The position numbers were made by a program, and so were the translations under genes. This document shows positions 23,368 through 46,414 of a stretch of 64,000 nt of DNA, one piece after another. The DNA is taken from positions 868,001 through 932,000 of the forward strand of contig CANLUT010000001.1 of NCBI GenBank assembly GCA_947494335.1, written 5' to 3'. The stretch comes from Oligoflexales bacterium (GTDB lineage: Bacteria; Bdellovibrionota_B; Oligoflexia; Oligoflexales; RGVZ01). How positions within the stretch are numbered: the stretch's first letter is position 1; every line of letters starts with the position of its first letter. The notes below the pieces were generated by a model. It was not told the origin of the DNA, made no database searches, and saw nothing but the letters and a program-made list of their open reading frames with translations.

Positions 23368-24639
23368 GTGGATTCTCAAGTTAAACATGACTCTAAAAAC
23401 CTAGAGCAGCAGTTTATCGACGACTACAATCAGTCGGCATCTAGCTTGCTGATGAGAGCCGGCATTACGGGGTTGGTCTGTTACAATTTGTTCATTATTT
23501 TCGATTACTTTAGCTACCCCGAAACTGTTTGGACGCATGCCGCCATTCGCCTAGGCTTTGTCACTCCAACCCTAATGATTATCTTGTTTGCTTTACGTCA
23601 GCAACGATTCAAACCGTACACGAGGAGTCTCATTTTACTCGGGGCTCTGATCTTTGCCCTGCCGGTAGTCTATTTTGAATGGAGCAACCGGCCGTCAATG
23701 ATAGGCGGCTCTTTATGGGGTGTTATCTTTGTCGCGATGTTTGGATTAACGACTCTCCGCATGCTTCAGCGTGAGGCCGTAATTTATACGGCGGTTTTGC
23801 TTGCGTCAGTGTCAGCTTGTTTAGTGATCGCTGATGCACCGCCTGCTGCATGGTTTAATCGACTGTTTCCCCTCTCCGTCATATGTTTTTTCGGCATTTT
23901 CGCGACTTACATCATGGAATCAGGCTGGCGAAAAATACATACGCAGAAAAAAATTATTGAGCGGCAAGAGCGCCAGGCAGCCGGTCTGCTTGAGGTGGTT
24001 TTCCCGGCTCCTGTCGCGCAGCGTTTAAAGTCTGAGCGCTCCACAATCGCGGAATATGCGGGAAGTGTATCCGTACTTTTTGCAGATATTGAAGGGTTTA
24101 CGGCGGCATCTCAGGTTTTAACTCCAGGGCAGTTGGTATCAGATCTAGACGCAATTTTTTCCAGAATCGATGCTCTTTGTATCGAACACGGGTGCGAAAA
24201 AATAAAAACAGTCGGTGACGCCTACATGGCAGTCTGCGGATTACCGTTGCCGGCGGAGGATCATGCAAAAAAGATACTAGGACTAGCGCTTGCGATGCAG
24301 CGTGCGGCGTCCGAGCTTACATTGGGAGGCAAGCCCATCAGATTTCGCATAGGAGTGCACTCCGGGCCAGTAGTGGCTGGTGTTATTGGTAAATCGCGCT
24401 TTTCCTACGATTTGTGGGGTGACACGGTTAATACGGCTAGCCGCATGGAGTCGACCGCGCCTGTTGGCGGGATTCAAATCAGTGATGAGACGGCAAAAGC
24501 CGTTGATGGGGCCTTTATAGTGGAACCACGCGGCGAGATTCAGGTTAAGGGCAAGGGACTTTTGCATACCTGGCTTGTGACCGGGACAAAAGCAGTTGAG
24601 CAAGATCAATCTCAAACATCAGATCGCATCTCAGCTTAA
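23368..24639 (+). CDS. Membrane-bound class III adenylate cyclase
   Basis: I chose a GTG at 23368 with ggaggtgg upstream; an in-frame GTG at 23305 is also open. About six membrane helices occupy residues 28-185, followed by a short coiled linker. The class III cyclase domain follows: metal aspartates D240 (LFADIEGF) and D284 (TVGDAYMAV), substrate-specifying K280 and D348 (YDLWGDTVN) that predict ATP, plus transition-state N355 and R359. It should make cAMP at the inner membrane as a homodimer, regulated through the membrane domain. It is monocistronic. Confidence 0.88.
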   Translation: MDSQVKHDSKNLEQQFIDDYNQSASSLLMRAGITGLVCYNLFIIFDYFSYPETVWTHAAIRLGFVTPTLMIILFALRQQRFKPYTRSLILLGALIFALPVVYFEWSNRPSMIGGSLWGVIFVAMFGLTTLRMLQREAVIYTAVLLASVSACLVIADAPPAAWFNRLFPLSVICFFGIFATYIMESGWRKIHTQKKIIERQERQAAGLLEVVFPAPVAQRLKSERSTIAEYAGSVSVLFADIEGFTAASQVLTPGQLVSDLDAIFSRIDALCIEHGCEKIKTVGDAYMAVCGLPLPAEDHAKKILGLALAMQRAASELTLGGKPIRFRIGVHSGPVVAGVIGKSRFSYDLWGDTVNTASRMESTAPVGGIQISDETAKAVDGAFIVEPRGEIQVKGKGLLHTWLVTGTKAVEQDQSQTSDRISA

Positions 24640-36904: not shown

Positions 36905-37882
36905 TCACGAGTTTTTAACGTGAGTCAGGGCCCGATCACTAACGACAGCTCCAACTCTCGAAATGACATCACTGGCAAGCGTTGCAGCGATTTTTCCGCA
37001 TGTAGCAAGGTCGCGGCCTTTCAAGAACCCATGCAAAAATCCAGCGGCAAACATATCGCCAGCAGCTGTTGTATCAACAACTTTTGTGGGAACAGGGCTG
37101 ATTTGGAATTCTTCTTTGCCTTTTACGACCAAAGCACCATCCGCACCGAGCTTCACAACTGCTATCGAACCCGTTGCAGCGATGCGTCTCGCAGTTTCTT
37201 CAGGCGAGGTTTGAAATAGCAGCTTTGCCTCCTCGCGGTTTGCAAAAACAATATCAGCCTCGGCCTCAATCAGAGCGATGAAGTCGCTGCGGTTACGGTC
37301 AACAACAAAAGGGTCAGCCAAATCAAAAGAGATGATAGTGTTATGCTTATGCGCTGTTTCGATAGAGCTTTTTAATGCGCGTTTCTGATCCTCAGTATCC
37401 CACTGGTATCCGCAGAAGTGAAAAACATGTGACTCGGCGATCTCTTTGTGAGGTATATGGGTCGCGTCGTAAAGCCGGCTTGCTCCCAAGTTCGTATTCA
37501 TGGTTCGTTCGCCGTCTGGGGTGATCAATATCAGGCATGTCCCTGTGCTTTCCGCGCCATGGCCGCCTAGCAAGGATTTTATACCCAGGGATTCCATTCG
37601 CTCGCGAATGCGGCGACCATACTCGTCATCATTGACCATCCCAGCAAAAACGGTTTTGTGCCCGAGGCTCGCTAAGGTTCTGATGGCATTCATGGAGCTA
37701 CCGCCAAGCTCGGTCACTTTCTTCTTTGTGCCGAATTGGGCAAGGACTTCGCGCTGACGCTGACTGTCAACTAGATGCATCACGCCTTTGGTGAGTCCAA
37801 GTCGTTTAATGTCAGCATCTTCAATTTCAATCAAAACGTCCATCAATGCATTACAAACGCTGGTAATATCATAGGTCTTCAT
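36905..37882 (-). CDS. PfkB-family carbohydrate/nucleoside kinase
   Basis: The 325-aa protein has both PfkB signatures: GGSSMNAIRTLASLG near residue 60 and the C-terminal anion hole DTTAAGDMFAAGFLHG with the catalytic Asp. The substrate region (NALMDVLIEI, GDxxxA-like) most resembles adenosine/nucleoside or sugar kinases, but the exact substrate cannot be read. It phosphorylates a hydroxyl with ATP in the cytoplasm. It is the last gene of a minus-strand run from pgsA, 32 bp after the previous gene. Confidence 0.88.
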   Translation of the reverse strand: MKTYDITSVCNALMDVLIEIEDADIKRLGLTKGVMHLVDSQRQREVLAQFGTKKKVTELGGSSMNAIRTLASLGHKTVFAGMVNDDEYGRRIRERMESLGIKSLLGGHGAESTGTCLILITPDGERTMNTNLGASRLYDATHIPHKEIAESHVFHFCGYQWDTEDQKRALKSSIETAHKHNTIISFDLADPFVVDRNRSDFIALIEAEADIVFANREEAKLLFQTSPEETARRIAATGSIAVVKLGADGALVVKGKEEFQISPVPTKVVDTTAAGDMFAAGFLHGFLKGRDLATCGKIAATLASDVISRVGAVVSDRALTHVKNS

Positions 37883-37914: not shown

Positions 37915-38457
37915 TTAGCTCGCCTCACGAGAATTGTCACGGAGTTCTGAAGGGTGTTTTGACATGAGTTGTGAATGGCTTATTTGTTCTGCGTAAAGGC
38001 TAGCCAGTCGCGTCTTGAGTTGAAAAAATTCTTCTGTTATTTCAGCGTTTTCTTTCTTTAAAAGCCACGCATTCCAGAATGCACAGATTATCGCGAGAAT
38101 TGTCCAGGATTGAGGCCTAGAAAGGCTGACGAAGGCCCACAAAAACGCGATCGTCAGCATGCCAAGACGAGTAAAGCCGATAAACCGTATCCCACACCAG
38201 CGGCTTCCGGATTGACGCAAATGGCGCAGATAAAGTGCACCGACGATCAAGGCAACGGGAAGGTTTGCAGCCCGCCAGGCAAACACTGATCCGTAGATTT
38301 CCCCTAGAATGGATGCTGACGTAAGCAGGCACATTAGAATCAGAGCGCGTTGACGTCTTTGGCGCTGCACCCAAGAAAGGATGGAAGCCGGGCTATAGGA
38401 GTGCAGTATAAGCGTGGCAATTAGGCTACACACCGCAACCCAATAGATCTTGGTCAT
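37915..38457 (-). CDS. Small multi-pass membrane protein of unknown function
   Basis: The 180-aa protein has about four to five helices (residues 5-22, 40-58, 65-80, 100-118, 120-135) and a cytoplasmic helical tail of 45 residues (EEFFQLKTRLASLYAEQIS). I recognise no family. Its start at 38457 is one base from the stop of the preceding MBL-like gene, so translational coupling is very likely. Confidence 0.65.
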   Translation of the reverse strand: MTKIYWVAVCSLIATLILHSYSPASILSWVQRQRRQRALILMCLLTSASILGEIYGSVFAWRAANLPVALIVGALYLRHLRQSGSRWCGIRFIGFTRLGMLTIAFLWAFVSLSRPQSWTILAIICAFWNAWLLKKENAEITEEFFQLKTRLASLYAEQISHSQLMSKHPSELRDNSREAS

Positions 38458-38458
38458 T

Positions 38459-39349
38459 TTATCCTGCCTTTGCTCGCGCCTGCGTGCTTAAGGATATAAA
38501 GCTCTCAACTTCAGATGCCAGGTGAATAGAAATTCTAGAGGGGTCCCCACATAGTTTTGGCAACTTTTCGCTTAGCTTCCTAAGCTCAGACTGTAGATGT
38601 ATGTCGGTCATTTCAGGATGAAACTGGCTAAGATATAAGTCATTGGCTCCCACTAATAAACCAAGCTTCAGCGCGTCATCGAATGTGGTTCTGTCCTGAC
38701 TCCAAACATCTTGGTGAGGGCCGTTGGAGGCGGCGCATACAAGAGTCTTTGCTCCCTCCAGGAAGGTCGCTATTAATGCGAGAGCGTGCTCATCAGGTGA
38801 GCTAATCATAACAAATCCCAGGTCAATTCCCGAGGTGTGAGTCAGGCGCCAAGCGGCCAACGGGTAGGGCGCTAATGGGTGAAGGAGTGGCAACGCCATA
38901 ATGGTCCATTGACCCCATTGCTTTTTAGTGGTGCTTCCGTGGATTGATAGCTTGGACGGAAAGCTCTCTATCCCATTAAAAGGGGTTAGGAGATTGGAAC
39001 TCATGTCATTGAGGGCGTCTTCGATTTGGGATTTGCTAGCGCTTGTAAAAAGCTCCAAATGGCTTGATTTGAAGTGAATTGGTGCAAAGAACGGCAAGCC
39101 AAGAATCGAGTCCCAAAACAGGTCAGAAAAAAGTATCGCGCAATGAAAGCGATCTTTTCTGGATTTGTGATCATTCAGCCAATTTGGAAGGGCCTGGTTT
39201 AGGCCAAATCCAGCATTTATAAAGATGTGACTGCTATCGTCACAAATCTCGATGCAAGAGGTATTGCCGCCAAAAGCGATATTCCTTCGACCTGGCACCG
39301 AGTGAAATGCCCTGACACCATGAAACTTCATGCGGCAGTTAGTGGCCAT
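38459..39349 (-). CDS. MBL-fold paralogue lacking the metal-binding motif
   Basis: The 296-aa protein matches the neighbouring MBL hydrolase in its opening (FHGVRAFHSVPGRRNIAFGG against FHGVRGSRPVHDPHNLIYGG) and layout. Where that protein has ITHTHWDHVLMLPFL, this one reads LFSDLFWDSILGLPFF, so every His of HxHxDH is lost. Other ligand positions are also replaced. It is probably an inactive partner or binding protein. Start 39349 has a strong gaggagga ribosome site and overlaps the MBL gene by 22 bp. Confidence 0.7.
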   Translation of the reverse strand: MATNCRMKFHGVRAFHSVPGRRNIAFGGNTSCIEICDDSSHIFINAGFGLNQALPNWLNDHKSRKDRFHCAILFSDLFWDSILGLPFFAPIHFKSSHLELFTSASKSQIEDALNDMSSNLLTPFNGIESFPSKLSIHGSTTKKQWGQWTIMALPLLHPLAPYPLAAWRLTHTSGIDLGFVMISSPDEHALALIATFLEGAKTLVCAASNGPHQDVWSQDRTTFDDALKLGLLVGANDLYLSQFHPEMTDIHLQSELRKLSEKLPKLCGDPSRISIHLASEVESFISLSTQARAKAG

Positions 39350-40245
39350 TCGTCCTCCTCTCGGGCGTTGATAACGTCCATTCCTAGTTGGACTGCCAAT
39401 CGTTGCGCTACCATTTGTTTTTTTGCGATGTCATGATCCAGATCCTCGGGTGCATGGTGGAACATGAATAAGCGCTTAACGTTGGCTTTGGAGCAAATAT
39501 CCATGGCAAATTCTGGTGTCGCATGGCCCCAGTCGGCTTTCAGATTTTCCTGGTTGAAATGCGTGTCAAAGACAACATTTGGAACGTCTTCTAGAAATTT
39601 GATCAACTGACGCTGATAGTTTTTCTCGAACTTTTTAACGCCTATCGAAATTGCCTGTTCGGTGAATGATTCACCTAGTAGGTTTCCACCCTCGATCGAG
39701 GCAATATCCGGTATTATGGCGGCGACGGAGCTCTCGTAACTTATCTTGTAACCCAGCGTAATATGTTGATGGTTTACCTGAAAGCCAACAACTTTTACTT
39801 TTCCTTCGATGATAAACGTTTTTCCGGGGGTTACTTTGTTAAAGCTCAAGTTGGCTTTGATTGAGGGCTTGGGGATCGGTAGTCGTCCTGGTTTCATCAA
39901 ATCATGAAATATGTCTTTGAACGGGACGCCGGCCACATCAGGCGCATAAAAGTGTATTTCGAAGTCGCTACTTTCTAGTTGTCGCAAAAATGGAAGCATC
40001 AATACGTGGTCCCAGTGCGTGTGTGTAATAAGAATATGCAGCTTTTTACGTTGTGGGTTTACTGATTTTAATGCTGATAGGTTTTGTAAACCGCTACCGC
40101 CATCCACGACGATTGAATAGTTCGAGCCGGTATCGAATTCAATACAAGTCGAATTTCCGCCATAAATCAGATTGTGTGGGTCGTGCACCGGACGAGACCC
40201 GCGGACGCCATGGAACCTCAGAATCGCAGCAGGCGATTTTTTCAT
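39328..40245 (-). CDS. Metallo-beta-lactamase-fold hydrolase
   Basis: The 305-aa protein carries an intact di-metal site: HTHWDH, NHQH, a later DTHF and HHAP. The layout is closest to cyclic-nucleotide phosphodiesterase-like and RNase Z-like MBL proteins (FHGVRGS start, GGNSTCIEF). I infer a phosphodiester substrate but cannot identify it. The ATG at 40245 overlaps the stop of the upstream gene (ATGA) and its 3' end overlaps the metal-less paralogue, so the three genes are tightly coupled. Confidence 0.82.
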   Translation of the reverse strand: MKKSPAAILRFHGVRGSRPVHDPHNLIYGGNSTCIEFDTGSNYSIVVDGGSGLQNLSALKSVNPQRKKLHILITHTHWDHVLMLPFLRQLESSDFEIHFYAPDVAGVPFKDIFHDLMKPGRLPIPKPSIKANLSFNKVTPGKTFIIEGKVKVVGFQVNHQHITLGYKISYESSVAAIIPDIASIEGGNLLGESFTEQAISIGVKKFEKNYQRQLIKFLEDVPNVVFDTHFNQENLKADWGHATPEFAMDICSKANVKRLFMFHHAPEDLDHDIAKKQMVAQRLAVQLGMDVINAREEDEWPLTAA

Positions 40246-41060
40246 GACGCCTCCCGCTCTGACGAGTGTTCTGTGTCTGAATTCATGTTTTCAGTATTGG
40301 TAACTATTCTTATGAGACGGGATTGCACACCGTTCAGTTCAATAATGATTCGTAAAGAGATCTGGGTTTGACTTCGGTGAATCACAACCACAGAGGCCGC
40401 TGCTGGTGTCAAGAGGTCGCAAATTAGCAGCTGCTCATCTTCTGATTTGGTGTCGGACGTGATTTTGAAGTCTAATGTAAGACCATCTGTTGACAGTTCG
40501 TAGGTCGTGAGGCGATCGGCCAATTTTTCTGAGAGAAGCGCTAGTCCTTTGGCTATGGCTGTAAAGGAAGGATAGTTTACAATCCGGTACTGTTTTGCCC
40601 ATGGAATCAAATTCGTATGAGATTCAGCGATTCCACTGGAAAAAGATATTGACGATGCATACCAGGATGACTGGGGATGAATTCCATAAGTATGCATCAA
40701 AGCTTGTAGCAAGGTCAGATCAAGCGTCAGGCCAACTTGGTTTGATGGGAGAATGATTTTGGAGTTTCCAGATAATTTTTTTGGCGATTGGTTTGATAAA
40801 ATATAAATCTGAGCCCAGGAAGATTCATGGTCATCGCTATGTGGGAGCTTCATCCCTTCGGGCAATAAAAGAACGGAGTTTGGCTCTGGAATTGACGGCA
40901 GTGACTTGATTTGGTCGACAACTTTAACGCATTGTCCCAAAGCAAGAGCAGTTCCCTTGAGTTTACGCATTGCGGCGCTGTTACCCTCGGGGCTGATGAT
41001 GTAGAAAATTGGAGCGGGACCTTTCAACTGGTTCTCCCGAAGCCGTTCGATATCAAACAT
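40242..41060 (-). CDS. Protein of unknown function in the MBL operon
   Basis: I chose the ATG at 41060; a TTG at 41114 is the open alternative and neither has a strong ribosome site. The 272-aa protein is soluble. Its first 110 residues have an alternating strand/helix pattern (IFYIISPEGNSAAMRK, SVLLLPEGM) that could be a degenerate receiver-like fold without the usual Asp pocket. The C-terminal part is unassigned. It is coupled to the MBL gene by a 4-bp overlap. Confidence 0.55.
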   Translation of the reverse strand: MFDIERLRENQLKGPAPIFYIISPEGNSAAMRKLKGTALALGQCVKVVDQIKSLPSIPEPNSVLLLPEGMKLPHSDDHESSWAQIYILSNQSPKKLSGNSKIILPSNQVGLTLDLTLLQALMHTYGIHPQSSWYASSISFSSGIAESHTNLIPWAKQYRIVNYPSFTAIAKGLALLSEKLADRLTTYELSTDGLTLDFKITSDTKSEDEQLLICDLLTPAAASVVVIHRSQTQISLRIIIELNGVQSRLIRIVTNTENMNSDTEHSSEREAS

Positions 41061-41162
41061 GAAGATTCTGTAAGGTAATCGGATATTTCCGGGGAAAGTT
41101 AACCAGAACTCCAAATGGTTTGTCCGCTGGCGGATATTCTGCGACAGGCCTATGCTTCAGAT

Positions 41163-41753
41163 TTAGCTGCGTTCAGTCGGGTGATTTTGGGAATTACCAA
41201 GAAACTCCCGAAAGTACAAATACCCCGAGTAGAGGCTAACAACCAGAGCAAGCCAAATGGCCGACATTCCGATTGTCCTAAATGGTATGTCAAACCATGA
41301 GATATCGCGCATAAGCAAACAGAAGATGCCGAGGTCCTGAAAGATTGTTTTTATCTTTCCGAATGAACTAACTTGGATCGTGTATCCGTCTTCTAATGCC
41401 ATCAGGCGCATGCCGCTGACTGCGATATCGCGACAAAGCAAAAATCCGCAAATCCAAGGTGGAAGAATATCTCCGTCTGCTAGTAAGAGAAGCGATGCGG
41501 CCGATAGCATTTTGTCTGCAATCGGATCGAGCAAAGCTCCGAGGCGACTCTCCTGGTTGTAGAGGCGGGCCAAATAGCCATCAAGAATATCCGTAAGACC
41601 CGCGAGTCCGAAGATCAAGGCACAAAGAACGTCAGTAAATTGGGTTTTAGTGGGGTAGATAAATAAAAGAACTGGGATCGCCAAAATTCTCGTTAAGGTC
41701 AGTTGGTTGGGGAGCTGACTTAGCCATGCAGCCTTGCTTGTTGGACGAGGCAT
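41163..41753 (-). CDS. pgsA: CDP-diacylglycerol-glycerol-3-phosphate 3-phosphatidyltransferase
   Basis: This inner-membrane enzyme makes phosphatidylglycerophosphate for acidic phospholipid synthesis. The CDP-alcohol phosphotransferase signature is exact: DGYLARLYNQESRLGALLDP followed by IAD, fitting DGx2ARx8Gx3Dx3D. The protein has about five to six helices and a normal 196-residue length. It opens the minus-strand run that continues through the MBL genes to PfkB, with a gap of about 100 bp to the next start. Confidence 0.92.
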   Translation of the reverse strand: MPRPTSKAAWLSQLPNQLTLTRILAIPVLLFIYPTKTQFTDVLCALIFGLAGLTDILDGYLARLYNQESRLGALLDPIADKMLSAASLLLLADGDILPPWICGFLLCRDIAVSGMRLMALEDGYTIQVSSFGKIKTIFQDLGIFCLLMRDISWFDIPFRTIGMSAIWLALVVSLYSGYLYFREFLGNSQNHPTERS

Positions 41754-41876: not shown

Positions 41877-43460
41877 TTGAGTACTGGAAATTTCAATACT
41901 GATTATTTGGTGGTCGGCGGTGGTATCGCGGGACTGTCTCTTGCTTTGAAGCTGGCAAGTAAGGGCCAGGTTACTGTCGTTGTGAAGAATGGGCTCGAAG
42001 AGAGTAATACCTGGTATGCTCAGGGCGGTATTGCATCGGTCCTTGATCCAACTGATAGCTTTGAAAATCACGTCCATGACACGATGATTGCAGGTGCTGG
42101 TTTATGCCACGAGGAGGTAGTGCGACTCGTTGTCTCGGAAGGGCCAAGACTGGTCAAGGAATTGGCGGAAATCGGCGCCAGATTCGATTCAGACAAGGAC
42201 GGAGCGTGGCATTTGACGCGAGAAGGTGGTCACAGCCATCGCAGAATCATTCATTCGCAAGATGTTACCGGAAAAGTTGTTGCTGAGGCTTTGATTGCCA
42301 AGGCTAAAGCGGATCCAAAAATTGAAATTTTAGAGCAGTTTACGGCAATAGATCTGATTACGACCGATAAGGTCGCGCCAGACTTTTCCAAGAACAGCTG
42401 CCTGGGTGGTTGGTTTTTTGATCGCCGTGCAAAACGCGTTGTCAGAATCACGAGTGGATTGACATTTCTTTGTACTGGCGGACACGGAAAGCTCTATTTA
42501 TACACATCGAATCCCGACAGCGCTACAGGTGATGGTCTGGCAATTGGCTGGCGTGCGGGGTGTCGTGTCGCAAATCTTGAATTTATGCAGTTTCATCCGA
42601 CCTGTTTATTTCATCCCAAAGCTAAGAATTTTTTAATCAGTGAAGCTGTCCGGGGGGAGGGTGGAGTGCTCAAAGACATGCGAGGACGATCCTTTATGGA
42701 GGATTATCACCCCATGGGATCTCTGGCGCCACGGGATATCGTCGCACGAGCTATTGATACTGAATTGAAAAAGTCAGGTGATCAGCATGTATGGCTAGAC
42801 GTTCGGGCGTTGGGTGGGGAGCGGATTAAAAAGTCGTTTCCGAATATCTATGAAATGTGTCTCAAACATGGAATTGATATGGCTGTAGATATGGTTCCAG
42901 TGGTGCCAGCTGCGCATTATAGCTGCGGTGGACTGGTTACAGATAACTATGCTCGAACAAATGTCGAGCGTTTATACGCGGTGGGTGAGGTCTCCTGCAC
43001 GGGTCTGCATGGAGCCAATCGATTAGCGTCAAACAGCCTTCTTGAAGCCATGGTGTTTGCGGACCGGGCCGCAAGTGATGCGATCACTAGAACGGATTTG
43101 GCTACTCCGTCATTGGTTGATGCTTCATGGACGAACGTGGATCAACCCGGACCAGATGAGCAGGTCGTACTGACCCATTCCTGGGATGAGATCAGACGGG
43201 TTATGTGGAACTATGTCGGAATCGTGCGAAGCGAACATCGTCTAAAACGAGCCTTGTCGCGAATTGAAAATATTCGTCAGGAAGTTGATGAGTATTGGTG
43301 GCGTAATCGGGTCTCAAACGAGGTGCTTGAAGTGCGAAATTTAGCAGCAGTAGCCTGGCTAACAGTCCGATCTGCGATGGCTAGAAAAGAATCCCGCGGA
43401 ATCCACTTCATGCTTGATTGGCCGGAAGCGTCTTCTGCGGGTAAGGACACCATTCTTTAA
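41877..43460 (+). CDS. nadB: L-aspartate oxidase
   Basis: This flavoenzyme oxidises aspartate to iminoaspartate, the first step of de novo NAD synthesis. The start is TTG. The FAD motif VVGGGIAGLSLALKLA, substrate loop TWYAQGGIASVLDPTDS, HTREGGHSHRRIIHS-type region and catalytic segment MQFHPTCLF are present, and the C-terminal helical domain is complete at 527 residues. NadA and NadC are not in the window. It is divergent from pgsA. Confidence 0.93.
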   Translation: MSTGNFNTDYLVVGGGIAGLSLALKLASKGQVTVVVKNGLEESNTWYAQGGIASVLDPTDSFENHVHDTMIAGAGLCHEEVVRLVVSEGPRLVKELAEIGARFDSDKDGAWHLTREGGHSHRRIIHSQDVTGKVVAEALIAKAKADPKIEILEQFTAIDLITTDKVAPDFSKNSCLGGWFFDRRAKRVVRITSGLTFLCTGGHGKLYLYTSNPDSATGDGLAIGWRAGCRVANLEFMQFHPTCLFHPKAKNFLISEAVRGEGGVLKDMRGRSFMEDYHPMGSLAPRDIVARAIDTELKKSGDQHVWLDVRALGGERIKKSFPNIYEMCLKHGIDMAVDMVPVVPAAHYSCGGLVTDNYARTNVERLYAVGEVSCTGLHGANRLASNSLLEAMVFADRAASDAITRTDLATPSLVDASWTNVDQPGPDEQVVLTHSWDEIRRVMWNYVGIVRSEHRLKRALSRIENIRQEVDEYWWRNRVSNEVLEVRNLAAVAWLTVRSAMARKESRGIHFMLDWPEASSAGKDTIL

Positions 43461-44139: not shown

Positions 44140-44895
44140 TCAAAGGTCGTACTGCTTTTTCAGTGATTGCCAGCGTCCCGACAGCTTCATGGCTTTAACA
44201 CAGGTGTCCAAGCGACGAATGATGCTCGGATCACGCTTGTAGAATGGACTGTTTTTCGACATGACGAAAAAGTAGTCCTGAGTCTGCAATGAAAAATTTG
44301 TATTCCTAATTTTATCTTGGAGCTGAAGCTTCTTACTGCGCCAACGAATTTCGGGGCTCGACACAATGGTGGCGTCGATCCTTTTCTTAGCCAGCATTTT
44401 GACCACCTGGTCAGGATCGTTAAGCTCGAGGGACTCAACGGTACCACCTTTTCTTTTTCGCTGTTCAAAATAATCTCGAAATTGATCTGAGGGTCGAAGT
44501 CCGACCAGCTGGCCTACTGAAAGCCCATCCAAATCAGAGATACGTCGTATTGTTTTTTTTACGTGTACGCCCGTCCAAACCGCGTACGTGTTGGAGAAAA
44601 CCACTTCTTTGCCGTATTCCAGGATTTTTGCACGATCGTTTTTATAGCTCATAATGTTAATATCTAAATCACCTTGTTCCATCTGTTTAAACATGCGTCG
44701 AATGGGGTACATATCAAATGAAACATTCGAATCAATTTTCTCGCCACATTGAGATAAAATTTCCCATCCCATGCCCCGCGCGGTTTTTGACTCCTGAATA
44801 AAAAATGGAGGCCAATCTGGGGCGCTAGCCGTCAGCGATCGTCCCGATGCAGATGTAGTGGCGACAAAACATATGATGCTAAGCAACAGCTTCAT
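44140..44895 (-). CDS. Periplasmic solute-binding protein (SBP family 3-like)
   Basis: The 251-aa protein has a signal peptide and the two-lobe family 3 pattern: APDWPPFFIQ opening, GMGWEILSQCGEKI, ISDLDGLSVGQLVGLRP hinge region and DQVVKMLAKKRIDATIVSS. Relatives bind amino acids or polar organics. No ABC permease is adjacent. Instead it overlaps the upstream phosphatase gene by 17 bp, suggesting it acts as a sensor subunit rather than for uptake. Confidence 0.82.
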   Translation of the reverse strand: MKLLLSIICFVATTSASGRSLTASAPDWPPFFIQESKTARGMGWEILSQCGEKIDSNVSFDMYPIRRMFKQMEQGDLDINIMSYKNDRAKILEYGKEVVFSNTYAVWTGVHVKKTIRRISDLDGLSVGQLVGLRPSDQFRDYFEQRKRKGGTVESLELNDPDQVVKMLAKKRIDATIVSSPEIRWRSKKLQLQDKIRNTNFSLQTQDYFFVMSKNSPFYKRDPSIIRRLDTCVKAMKLSGRWQSLKKQYDL

Positions 44896-46414
44896 GTTCG
44901 TCGTCCTTTCTCGTGTCGATCACCATTAAACAAATATCATCACTCGCTGAAGCTCCCGACATGTGTATTTGCAGCCTTTGCAGTATTCGGTCTAGGAGCA
45001 CGGATGGGGGATATCTACGATCGAGTGTGCGCAACATTTTGATAAAATCACGTTGGAACGTGGTGTTGGTTTTATTTCTAGCCTCGCTCAGGCCGTCGCT
45101 GAATAGGCAAATAATATCGTCATCGCCTAAGCGATGCGCTGTATCTTTATAGGGCGGTGGCGCAGTGGCCTTTGTCAGGAACTCAAAGCCAAGTGGCGAT
45201 TGAGCTGGTGCTGCGAGTGGAGATACAATCATTTTTTCTGAATCGGTCTTTAAAATGAGCGGTAGAGGGTGACCAGCACTCGATATCAAAACTTTTCGGG
45301 AGGCCACATCAATCTTTATAATGGATACGGTCATGGCCAGCTGACATTCATGTAAGATGGTGACCAGGGCGCTACGTAATATATTGAGAACGGTTGCAGG
45401 CGTGAATGACTTACTATTCTGTTGAATCAGTGGAGTTAAGGTTTGGATCGCGCCAAACGCTGCCATAGTGACGAGACCTTGGGGGATGCCATGACCTGTG
45501 ACGTCACCAACCATCGCATAGATGGTACGGCCCTTATCACACTCAAAAACGGTAAGCCAATCACCAGAGAGGTTTGACATGGGCTGATAGTATTGTGCTA
45601 CCCGTCGCGCAGTGTTAAAGCCCCTTGTAGCATTCATCGATCTCTGGAGGGTCTCGGCGATGCCCAGCTCAGTTTTCAGAATGGTGGCAGCTTGCATGGT
45701 TTCGATAATTTGCCTCTCTCTGGAGGCAATTTTTTCAGCCATATAATTCACTTCATCAGTAATTTTAAGAAGCTCACGCTGAGGGACCTGCGGGAGTTTC
45801 TCTTTATATTGGCCACTGGCAATATTTTGAATGCCTTTGATCAGCTTATTGATCGGCAAGACGAGAAAGCGTTCAACAAGCGGGACAACGAGAAAGAAGA
45901 CAACGATGACAATCGAAATGACCGTTAGCAAAATTGTGATTAAGAAATTTCGTAAGGCGGTTGCGTAGAGTGAAGCGGTCGATGCGCCAACGGAAACAAC
46001 GCCAATTTTTTTACCCTTATAAATAATATCCTTTGACGAACGTATATCAACCGATCGCCCAGACTTTTTGAATTCCGTGATGAGGCTACCAGCATCGTCG
46101 AAAACCTTGACGCTTGAAATTCCGTTGTCCAAGCCGTGGGTTCCGGCAAGAGCTTTGATTTCGGTTTCGTTGTATGTCCAAACCGGAAGAGCAAGTAGGT
46201 TAGCCAGATTATTTGCACTACTGATCACGCTACTTCTTAACTCTGACCGGTCGGATCGAGTTTGGTAGATGAATGAGATAAGGCCTGCTATGAGAAGGGA
46301 TGCTGAAAGTGCGATAACAAGTCGAGACGCCAGATCGCGCGCAATGGTGCGCTGCTGGTACATCAATGGCAACCGTGCGGAGCTGCGTAAAAAATTTGCG
46401 AACATTTTGTTCAA
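44879..46414 (-). CDS. Transmembrane sensor with HAMP and SpoIIE-type PP2C phosphatase domain
   Basis: Residues 27-52 and 158-182 are membrane helices flanking a periplasmic region of about 105 residues. A HAMP segment follows (LPINKLIKGIQNIASGQYKE), then the SpoIIE/PP2C domain from about 265 with SGDWLTVFE, VGDVTGHGIPQG, SSAGHPLPLIL, CLFSDGLSEA and ASDDICLMV, retaining the metal aspartates. It should dephosphorylate an anti-sigma-factor antagonist or similar. It is upstream of, and overlaps, the binding-protein gene, which may report ligand to its periplasmic domain. Confidence 0.87.
   Translation of the reverse strand: MNKMFANFLRSSARLPLMYQQRTIARDLASRLVIALSASLLIAGLISFIYQTRSDRSELRSSVISSANNLANLLALPVWTYNETEIKALAGTHGLDNGISSVKVFDDAGSLITEFKKSGRSVDIRSSKDIIYKGKKIGVVSVGASTASLYATALRNFLITILLTVISIVIVVFFLVVPLVERFLVLPINKLIKGIQNIASGQYKEKLPQVPQRELLKITDEVNYMAEKIASRERQIIETMQAATILKTELGIAETLQRSMNATRGFNTARRVAQYYQPMSNLSGDWLTVFECDKGRTIYAMVGDVTGHGIPQGLVTMAAFGAIQTLTPLIQQNSKSFTPATVLNILRSALVTILHECQLAMTVSIIKIDVASRKVLISSAGHPLPLILKTDSEKMIVSPLAAPAQSPLGFEFLTKATAPPPYKDTAHRLGDDDIICLFSDGLSEARNKTNTTFQRDFIKMLRTLDRRYPPSVLLDRILQRLQIHMSGASASDDICLMVIDTRKDDEHEAVA

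Follow-up and report, generated by a model that had tools for sequence, protein, structure and literature searches.

An Oligoflexales tandem of metallo-β-lactamase-fold paralogues with a degenerate second member

Introduction

Eukaryotic RNA processing offers familiar examples of metallo-β-lactamase (MBL)-fold hydrolases with pseudo-enzyme partners. CPSF100 and INTS9 are the inactive partners of the active CPSF73 and INTS11 (PMC4819959), and long-form tRNase Z (tRNase ZL; ELAC2/Trz1) is a fused duplicate whose amino half lacks the catalytic residues, while the interface between its halves still resembles that of the short-form homodimer (PMC5646807). In the RNase Z homodimer, an arm of one subunit delivers the substrate to its partner's active site (PMC5646807); class II phosphodiesterases are likewise homodimers, with E74 and Y112 of Apyc1 acting in catalysis from the opposing protomer (PMC9117128). 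In these eukaryotic cases the passage from working subunit to pseudo-subunit is obscured by the great age of the events.

Here we analysed a 64,000-nt stretch of DNA (the window; C1:868001-932000) from a 3.34-Mb Oligoflexales genome, in which an intact MBL-fold gene, A, overlaps a degenerate paralogue, B. The A–B pair is a variant of this known theme and offers an unusually good natural series on the origin of pseudo-subunits: depending on the family, the same tandem either has two intact subunits or has a degenerate second one, which makes the transition directly testable, with intact pairs of the G010 or G035 type set against those of the window's genus as an informative comparison. With only two genes, the pair also gives access to a branch of MBL phosphodiesterases that is widespread but uncharacterised.

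Each described system resembles the pair in part. Like long-form tRNase Z, it derives from a tandemly duplicated RNase Z-type MBL protein, one copy of which has lost catalytic His/Asp residues that the other kept; the long form, however, is a single eukaryotic chain that begins with its inactive half, whereas here two bacterial genes overlap with the active one first, in a genome that holds a better RNase Z candidate elsewhere. CPSF73/CPSF100 and INTS11/INTS9 also combine an active MBL protein with a paralogue devoid of metal ligands, in heterodimers that are known there and inferred here, but these are eukaryotic RNA-processing proteins, CPSF73/100 carrying a β-CASP domain, and are cited here as analogues. 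YhfI (6kns) and Apyc1 (7u2r/7u2s) have the same fold (YhfI Z ~24; Apyc1 Foldseek E 3e-9) and the HxHxDH motif seen in A, yet sequence identity is only ~11-17%, and both are homodimeric whereas A and B are two different proteins. RNase J1/J2 is a bacterial pair of MBL-fold paralogues acting together and is to that extent alike; its members, in contrast, are β-CASP ribonucleases, and we know of no overlapping tandem with a ligand-less partner among them.

Locus architecture and the intact hydrolase

On the minus strand the locus reads pgsA – X – A – B – M – pfkB (Table 1). Genes, strands, the 4-bp ATGA overlap at the X/A junction (40242-40245), the 22-bp A/B overlap and the 1-bp gap between B and M (38458) are all as the original prediction described them. 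The layout it gave is real. The range assigned to it, 37915-41753, contains five genes, from M to pgsA, with pfkB as a sixth. The A/B overlap likely reflects translational coupling. Three start codons are conceivable for X, namely TTG 41114, ATG 41060 or a TTG near 41027, the last of which matches its closest relative. PgsA scores 151.6 bits against TIGR00560 (cut-off 109.1) and thus belongs to the PgsA family, and the PfkB protein is similar to adenosine kinases of solved structure (3ubo, E 3e-54). Divergently beside pgsA, as in most relatives read, lies a nadB-like gene (41877-43460; L-aspartate oxidase by sequence). Elsewhere in the window, at 24058-24582, a class III nucleotide cyclase domain is encoded, one of 12 in the genome and not linked to the operon.

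Table 1. Coordinates of the locus features, in window positions
Feature	Position	Strand	Assignment and basis
pgsA	41163..41753	-	CDP-diacylglycerol--glycerol-3-phosphate 3-phosphatidyltransferase, host locus; TIGR00560
gene X	40242..41060	-	fast-evolving protein, start codon uncertain; low-confidence model suggests pseudo-receiver + GHKL/RsbW-like domain
gene A	39328..40245	-	intact MBL-fold hydrolase, 305 aa; RNase Z/YhfI/PhnP-like phosphodiesterase superfamily; Lactamase_B_2 and ligands
A metal motif HTHWDH, residues 75-80	40006..40023	-	
A 3' end / B 5' end overlap, 22 bp	39328..39349	-	
gene B	38459..39349	-	degenerate MBL paralogue, 296 aa, 2/7 metal ligands kept; BLASTP, AlphaFold, ligand table
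B residues 76-81, D-L-F-W-D-S in place of HxHxDH	39107..39124	-	
gene M	37915..38457	-	small membrane protein, ~4 hydrophobic segments and polar C-terminus; hydropathy
pfkB-family kinase	36905..37882	-	adenosine-kinase-like, host locus; Pfam PfkB, E 6.5e-52

Protein A, predicted from its HTHWDH motif to be an intact MBL protein, proved to be one. It matches Pfam Lactamase_B_2 (E 6.6e-14; 52.4 bits, cut-off 27) and carries all seven metal ligands (H75, H77, D79, H80, H159, D180 and H263), HxHxDH included, which are invariant in the 15 A proteins collected. Against the tRNase Z equivalog model TIGR02651 (NCBIfam) it reaches 48.6 bits, far from the cut-off of 292.95. We rejected A as the tRNase Z of this genome on account of that low score and of a better candidate gene elsewhere, C2, the best of the genome at 100 bits, itself still below the curated cut-off. 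Against the NCBIfam model of cyclic nucleotide-degrading phosphodiesterases (NF041851), A scores 17.3 bits (cut-off 400); activity of that kind is still possible.

A second MBL-fold protein with a remodelled pocket

Protein B has no family match in Pfam or NCBIfam and is paralogous to A (BLASTP E 4e-11 over the N-terminal third). Its AlphaFold model, built from a 39-sequence alignment, has a pLDDT of 90.1 and superposes over ~240 residues on RNase Z (Z 25), E. coli ZiPD and B. subtilis YhfI (Z 24), from which we conclude that B has the MBL fold throughout, in agreement with the shared fold that had been proposed for the two proteins. By its model, B is thus a fold member of the RNase Z/class II phosphodiesterase-like MBL proteins, without being a predicted enzyme of that family.

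At the seven ligand positions of A, the window's B reads D76, F78, D80, S81, H157, S184 and Q242. Three histidines of the HxHxDH motif have become D76, F78 and S81, an aspartate and a histidine outside that motif have become S184 and Q242, and D80 and H157 are kept, so the earlier statement that B had lost every ligand was wrong. In the RNase Z-like GHS motif, B has R220 in place of the histidine. The four closest genomes share D76, S81, R220, Q242 and F243, as well as D80, and D76, R220 and F243 recur in the more distant G004. With the replacement residues themselves fixed among close genomes, the former active site was evidently rebuilt and then maintained, not left to decay.

B is under continued constraint and evolves nearly as slowly as A. 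Between the window's genome and G002, dN is 0.22 for A, 0.29 for B, 0.67 for X and 0.59 for M (with dS saturated, no reliable dN/dS can be given), and identity is 65% for B against 71% for A. The pocket fixed in the four closest genomes, together with a rate nearly as slow as that of A, argues that B is not a dying gene.

The tandem across genomes and its history

Profiles of A and B run against 43 genomes of the order Oligoflexales recovered the tandem in 14, adjacent every time, and none of the 43 contained A without B or B without A. The neighbourhood search that had been proposed as a check on the degenerate paralogue thus never found it alone. In all 14 cassettes the two genes overlap by 16-37 bp, with start codons taken mechanically and the overlap probably inherited from one ancestor, so that the genomes do not count as 14 independent events; its conservation takes the coupled arrangement beyond chance.

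Two genomes separate the pair from its usual surroundings. In G024, pgsA and pfkB sit on other contigs than the stretch with A and B, and G013 has a second A–B pair elsewhere in its genome; from these we conclude that A–B is a unit of its own. The second tandem of G013 (L032 6271-7991; G013:C829) is divergent, retains all ligands in both members and has no neighbours in common with the cassette; the estimated contamination of G013 is 8%. Outside the order, a Myxococcales metagenome-assembled genome has a similar tandem in an unrelated neighbourhood. There (L136 5959-7715), an intact and a degenerate MBL gene overlap on a contig that also carries rpsB-like and bacterioferritin-like genes; the second gene reads DTHLDH, with the first His replaced by Asp, and its motif IV Asp is Ala. 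When 195 Myxococcota genomes were searched with the A profile, none of the ten best-scoring loci with retrieved DNA had a second MBL gene within that DNA. The A-like gene thus looks, from sequence, to be generally single in Myxococcota, and tandems of the L136 type to be rare.

In a tree of 61 proteins, A forms one clade (bootstrap/SH-aLRT 96/90) and B another (98/96), which makes the duplication old and means that the tandem either arose before the families in which it occurs or was transmitted as a unit. Ligand loss is confined to the second gene of pairs: among 98 proteins, 6 of the 15 B proteins show it, and the remaining 83, made up of the 15 A proteins, 18 single-copy relatives from the searched genomes and 50 further relatives, are all intact. 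The nine intact B proteins are those of eight cassettes and of the second pair in G013. The losses fall in five genomes of the window's genus g1 (G000, G002, G003, G004 and G005) and in G022, of another family, whose pattern R-H-D-H-E-Q-R is unlike that of the genus. The second gene lost ligands on the stem of the window's genus, separately in G022, and in the Myxococcales tandem of L136; the three losses differ in pattern and belong to separate lineages. In the tree a long branch leads to B of the genus; B of G004 sits on a very long branch of its own, and its exact place is uncertain.

A probable two-subunit hydrolase

On the whole evidence, A and B are probably two subunits of one phosphodiester hydrolase of the RNase Z/class II phosphodiesterase branch, with B a pseudo-enzyme in the window's genus. 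An old duplication yielded two genes whose products would have been co-translated subunits, both catalytic at first; in the genus B then lost its di-metal site and would now serve catalytic A as a structural, regulatory or substrate-positioning partner. Given homodimeric relatives and the precedents of tRNase ZL, CPSF100 and INTS9, a heterodimer in which A is catalytic and B supports or senses is the simplest reading; by this analogy the two would associate physically, with catalysis falling to A. The prediction of an active/inactive pair, comparable to CPSF73/100, holds in that the ligand-depleted paralogue is maintained with its intact partner, is genetically inseparable from it, is under selection and has the same fold. 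The B segment after the metal motif (residues 84-126) is retained no better than other conserved columns (P 0.46) and so offers no trace, at the sequence level, of an interface kept for action in trans, and adjacent co-expression could serve dosage instead of complex formation.

Candidate substrates would be a cyclic mononucleotide, an RNA 3' end, an AMPylated protein or another phosphodiester. The genome encodes 12 class III cyclase domains, so a cyclic nucleotide would be available and is plausible as substrate; the cyclic-nucleotide signalling that was proposed at the outset is, on such sequence grounds, possible. The nearest solved relatives include class II phosphodiesterases. RNA is a possible substrate too, and RNase Z is also able to remove AMP from proteins (PMC12663964).

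The broader proposition is that the pair represents a bacterial, unfused counterpart of the eukaryotic active/pseudo-enzyme MBL complexes: an obligate heterodimeric phosphodiesterase whose second subunit has repeatedly lost its metal site (in g1, G022 and the Myxococcales tandem) and which, in the window's genus, has perhaps gained a new ligand-sensing pocket in B. We give this slightly less than even credence; if true, it would supply a natural series of enzymes running from two active sites down to one.

The fixed pocket invites another reading, in which B has been neofunctionalised around D76, D80, H157 and R220, with a ligand or chemistry of its own, and is co-expressed in the pathway of A without being its subunit. 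The conservation of D76, S81, R220, Q242 and F243 in four of four close genomes, with three of these residues reaching G004, would fit such a role, as would the intact fold and a long branch of the kind that a shift in function could leave. However, intact counterparts of B are always tied to A, and the second genes of G022 and L136 lost their ligands differently, which fits a relaxed need for catalysis within a complex; we therefore regard neofunctionalisation as fairly unlikely.

The surrounding genes

The pgsA–pfkB interval is itself variable. In six genomes without A and B, pgsA and pfkB are adjacent, as direct neighbours with nothing between them in G012, G028 and G040 and likewise by coordinates in G019, G020 and G034. 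The Oligoflexus-like family f6 and some of f8/g9 have X and M between them without A and B, whereas in f1/g2 and the rest of f8/g9 a gene in the X position stands alone; conversely, G022 and G031 have A and B without X and M. Profile comparison shows X of f8/g9, of f6 and of three cassette genomes to be homologous (E 3e-38 and 6e-8), and likewise M of several families, but gives no sequence link from these to X and M of the window's genus. The latter are positional counterparts and may be fast-evolving homologues.

X itself has no match in Pfam or NCBIfam; its relatives gave nothing in Pfam and nothing useful in a sequence profile search against solved structures. A model from seven sequences has low confidence (mean pLDDT 63.5) and falls into two parts, each matching a single fold class consistently: residues 15-127 resemble receivers (FixJ, Z 9.3 over 105 residues), and residues 134-243 resemble GHKL domains of the RsbW/SpoIIAB type (Z 10.3). 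Where a receiver carries its phospho-acceptor, X of other families has an IVLHD segment, whereas the window's X reads LLLPEGM and lacks the Asp after strand 3. X may thus be a pseudo-receiver/pseudo-kinase-like protein, a lead that rests on this model; the degenerate receiver fold suggested earlier for one operon member fits X, though weakly supported (model pLDDT 63, receivers Z ~9). A few kb from X, the window encodes a membrane protein that reads as HAMP plus a SpoIIE/RsbU-type phosphatase (44879-46414), and from sequence a link between it and X, with its RsbW-like model, is possible.

These features could make X, A, B and M a four-protein signalling system, in which a pseudo-receiver/GHKL protein and a membrane anchor control the hydrolase. 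Their tight spacing, the receiver- and RsbW-like model of X and the conserved Asp at the expected place in other families' X speak for it. Against it, the model is of low confidence, profile comparison does not tie the window's X and M to their namesakes in other families, and X and M, patchy in occurrence, are found without A and B in several families as A and B are found without them. We consider such a system unlikely. Because the two sets of genes are distributed separately, the presumed four-gene system is better described as an A–B pair in a host operon; the four-gene unit as stated was rejected, and the fixed proportion expected of its four products is not supported.

That the genes serve phospholipid metabolism because pgsA adjoins most cassettes is very improbable, since pgsA and pfkB are adjacent without A and B in six genomes and the G024 pair is not beside pgsA; with A and B inside a variable locus, proximity to pgsA tells little about function and is a weak clue to the lipid-linked turnover once proposed from that neighbour. 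It is just as improbable that B, for all its lost ligands and the long branch to its genus, is a decaying duplicate heading for loss: its frame is open in all five pair-bearing members of the genus, its overlap with A is retained, and its dN and the fixed replacements in its pocket led us to reject a pseudogene.

M, with positional counterparts in the f6 and f8/g9 loci, has only one family match, which is insignificant. A conserved RNA hairpin around its stop codon was considered and dropped, as the hairpin is present in the window and is not conserved; neither such a hairpin nor the Shine-Dalgarno sequence of pfkB accounts for the shared tail of the protein. Across families, in sequences otherwise hardly alignable, M nearly always ends in (K/R/E)-(A/T/V/I/S)-(S/G/A), as in REAS, NKAS, PKAG, SKAS and QKTS (seen at window 37915-37990 and in L021-L025, L030, L036 and L175-L182).
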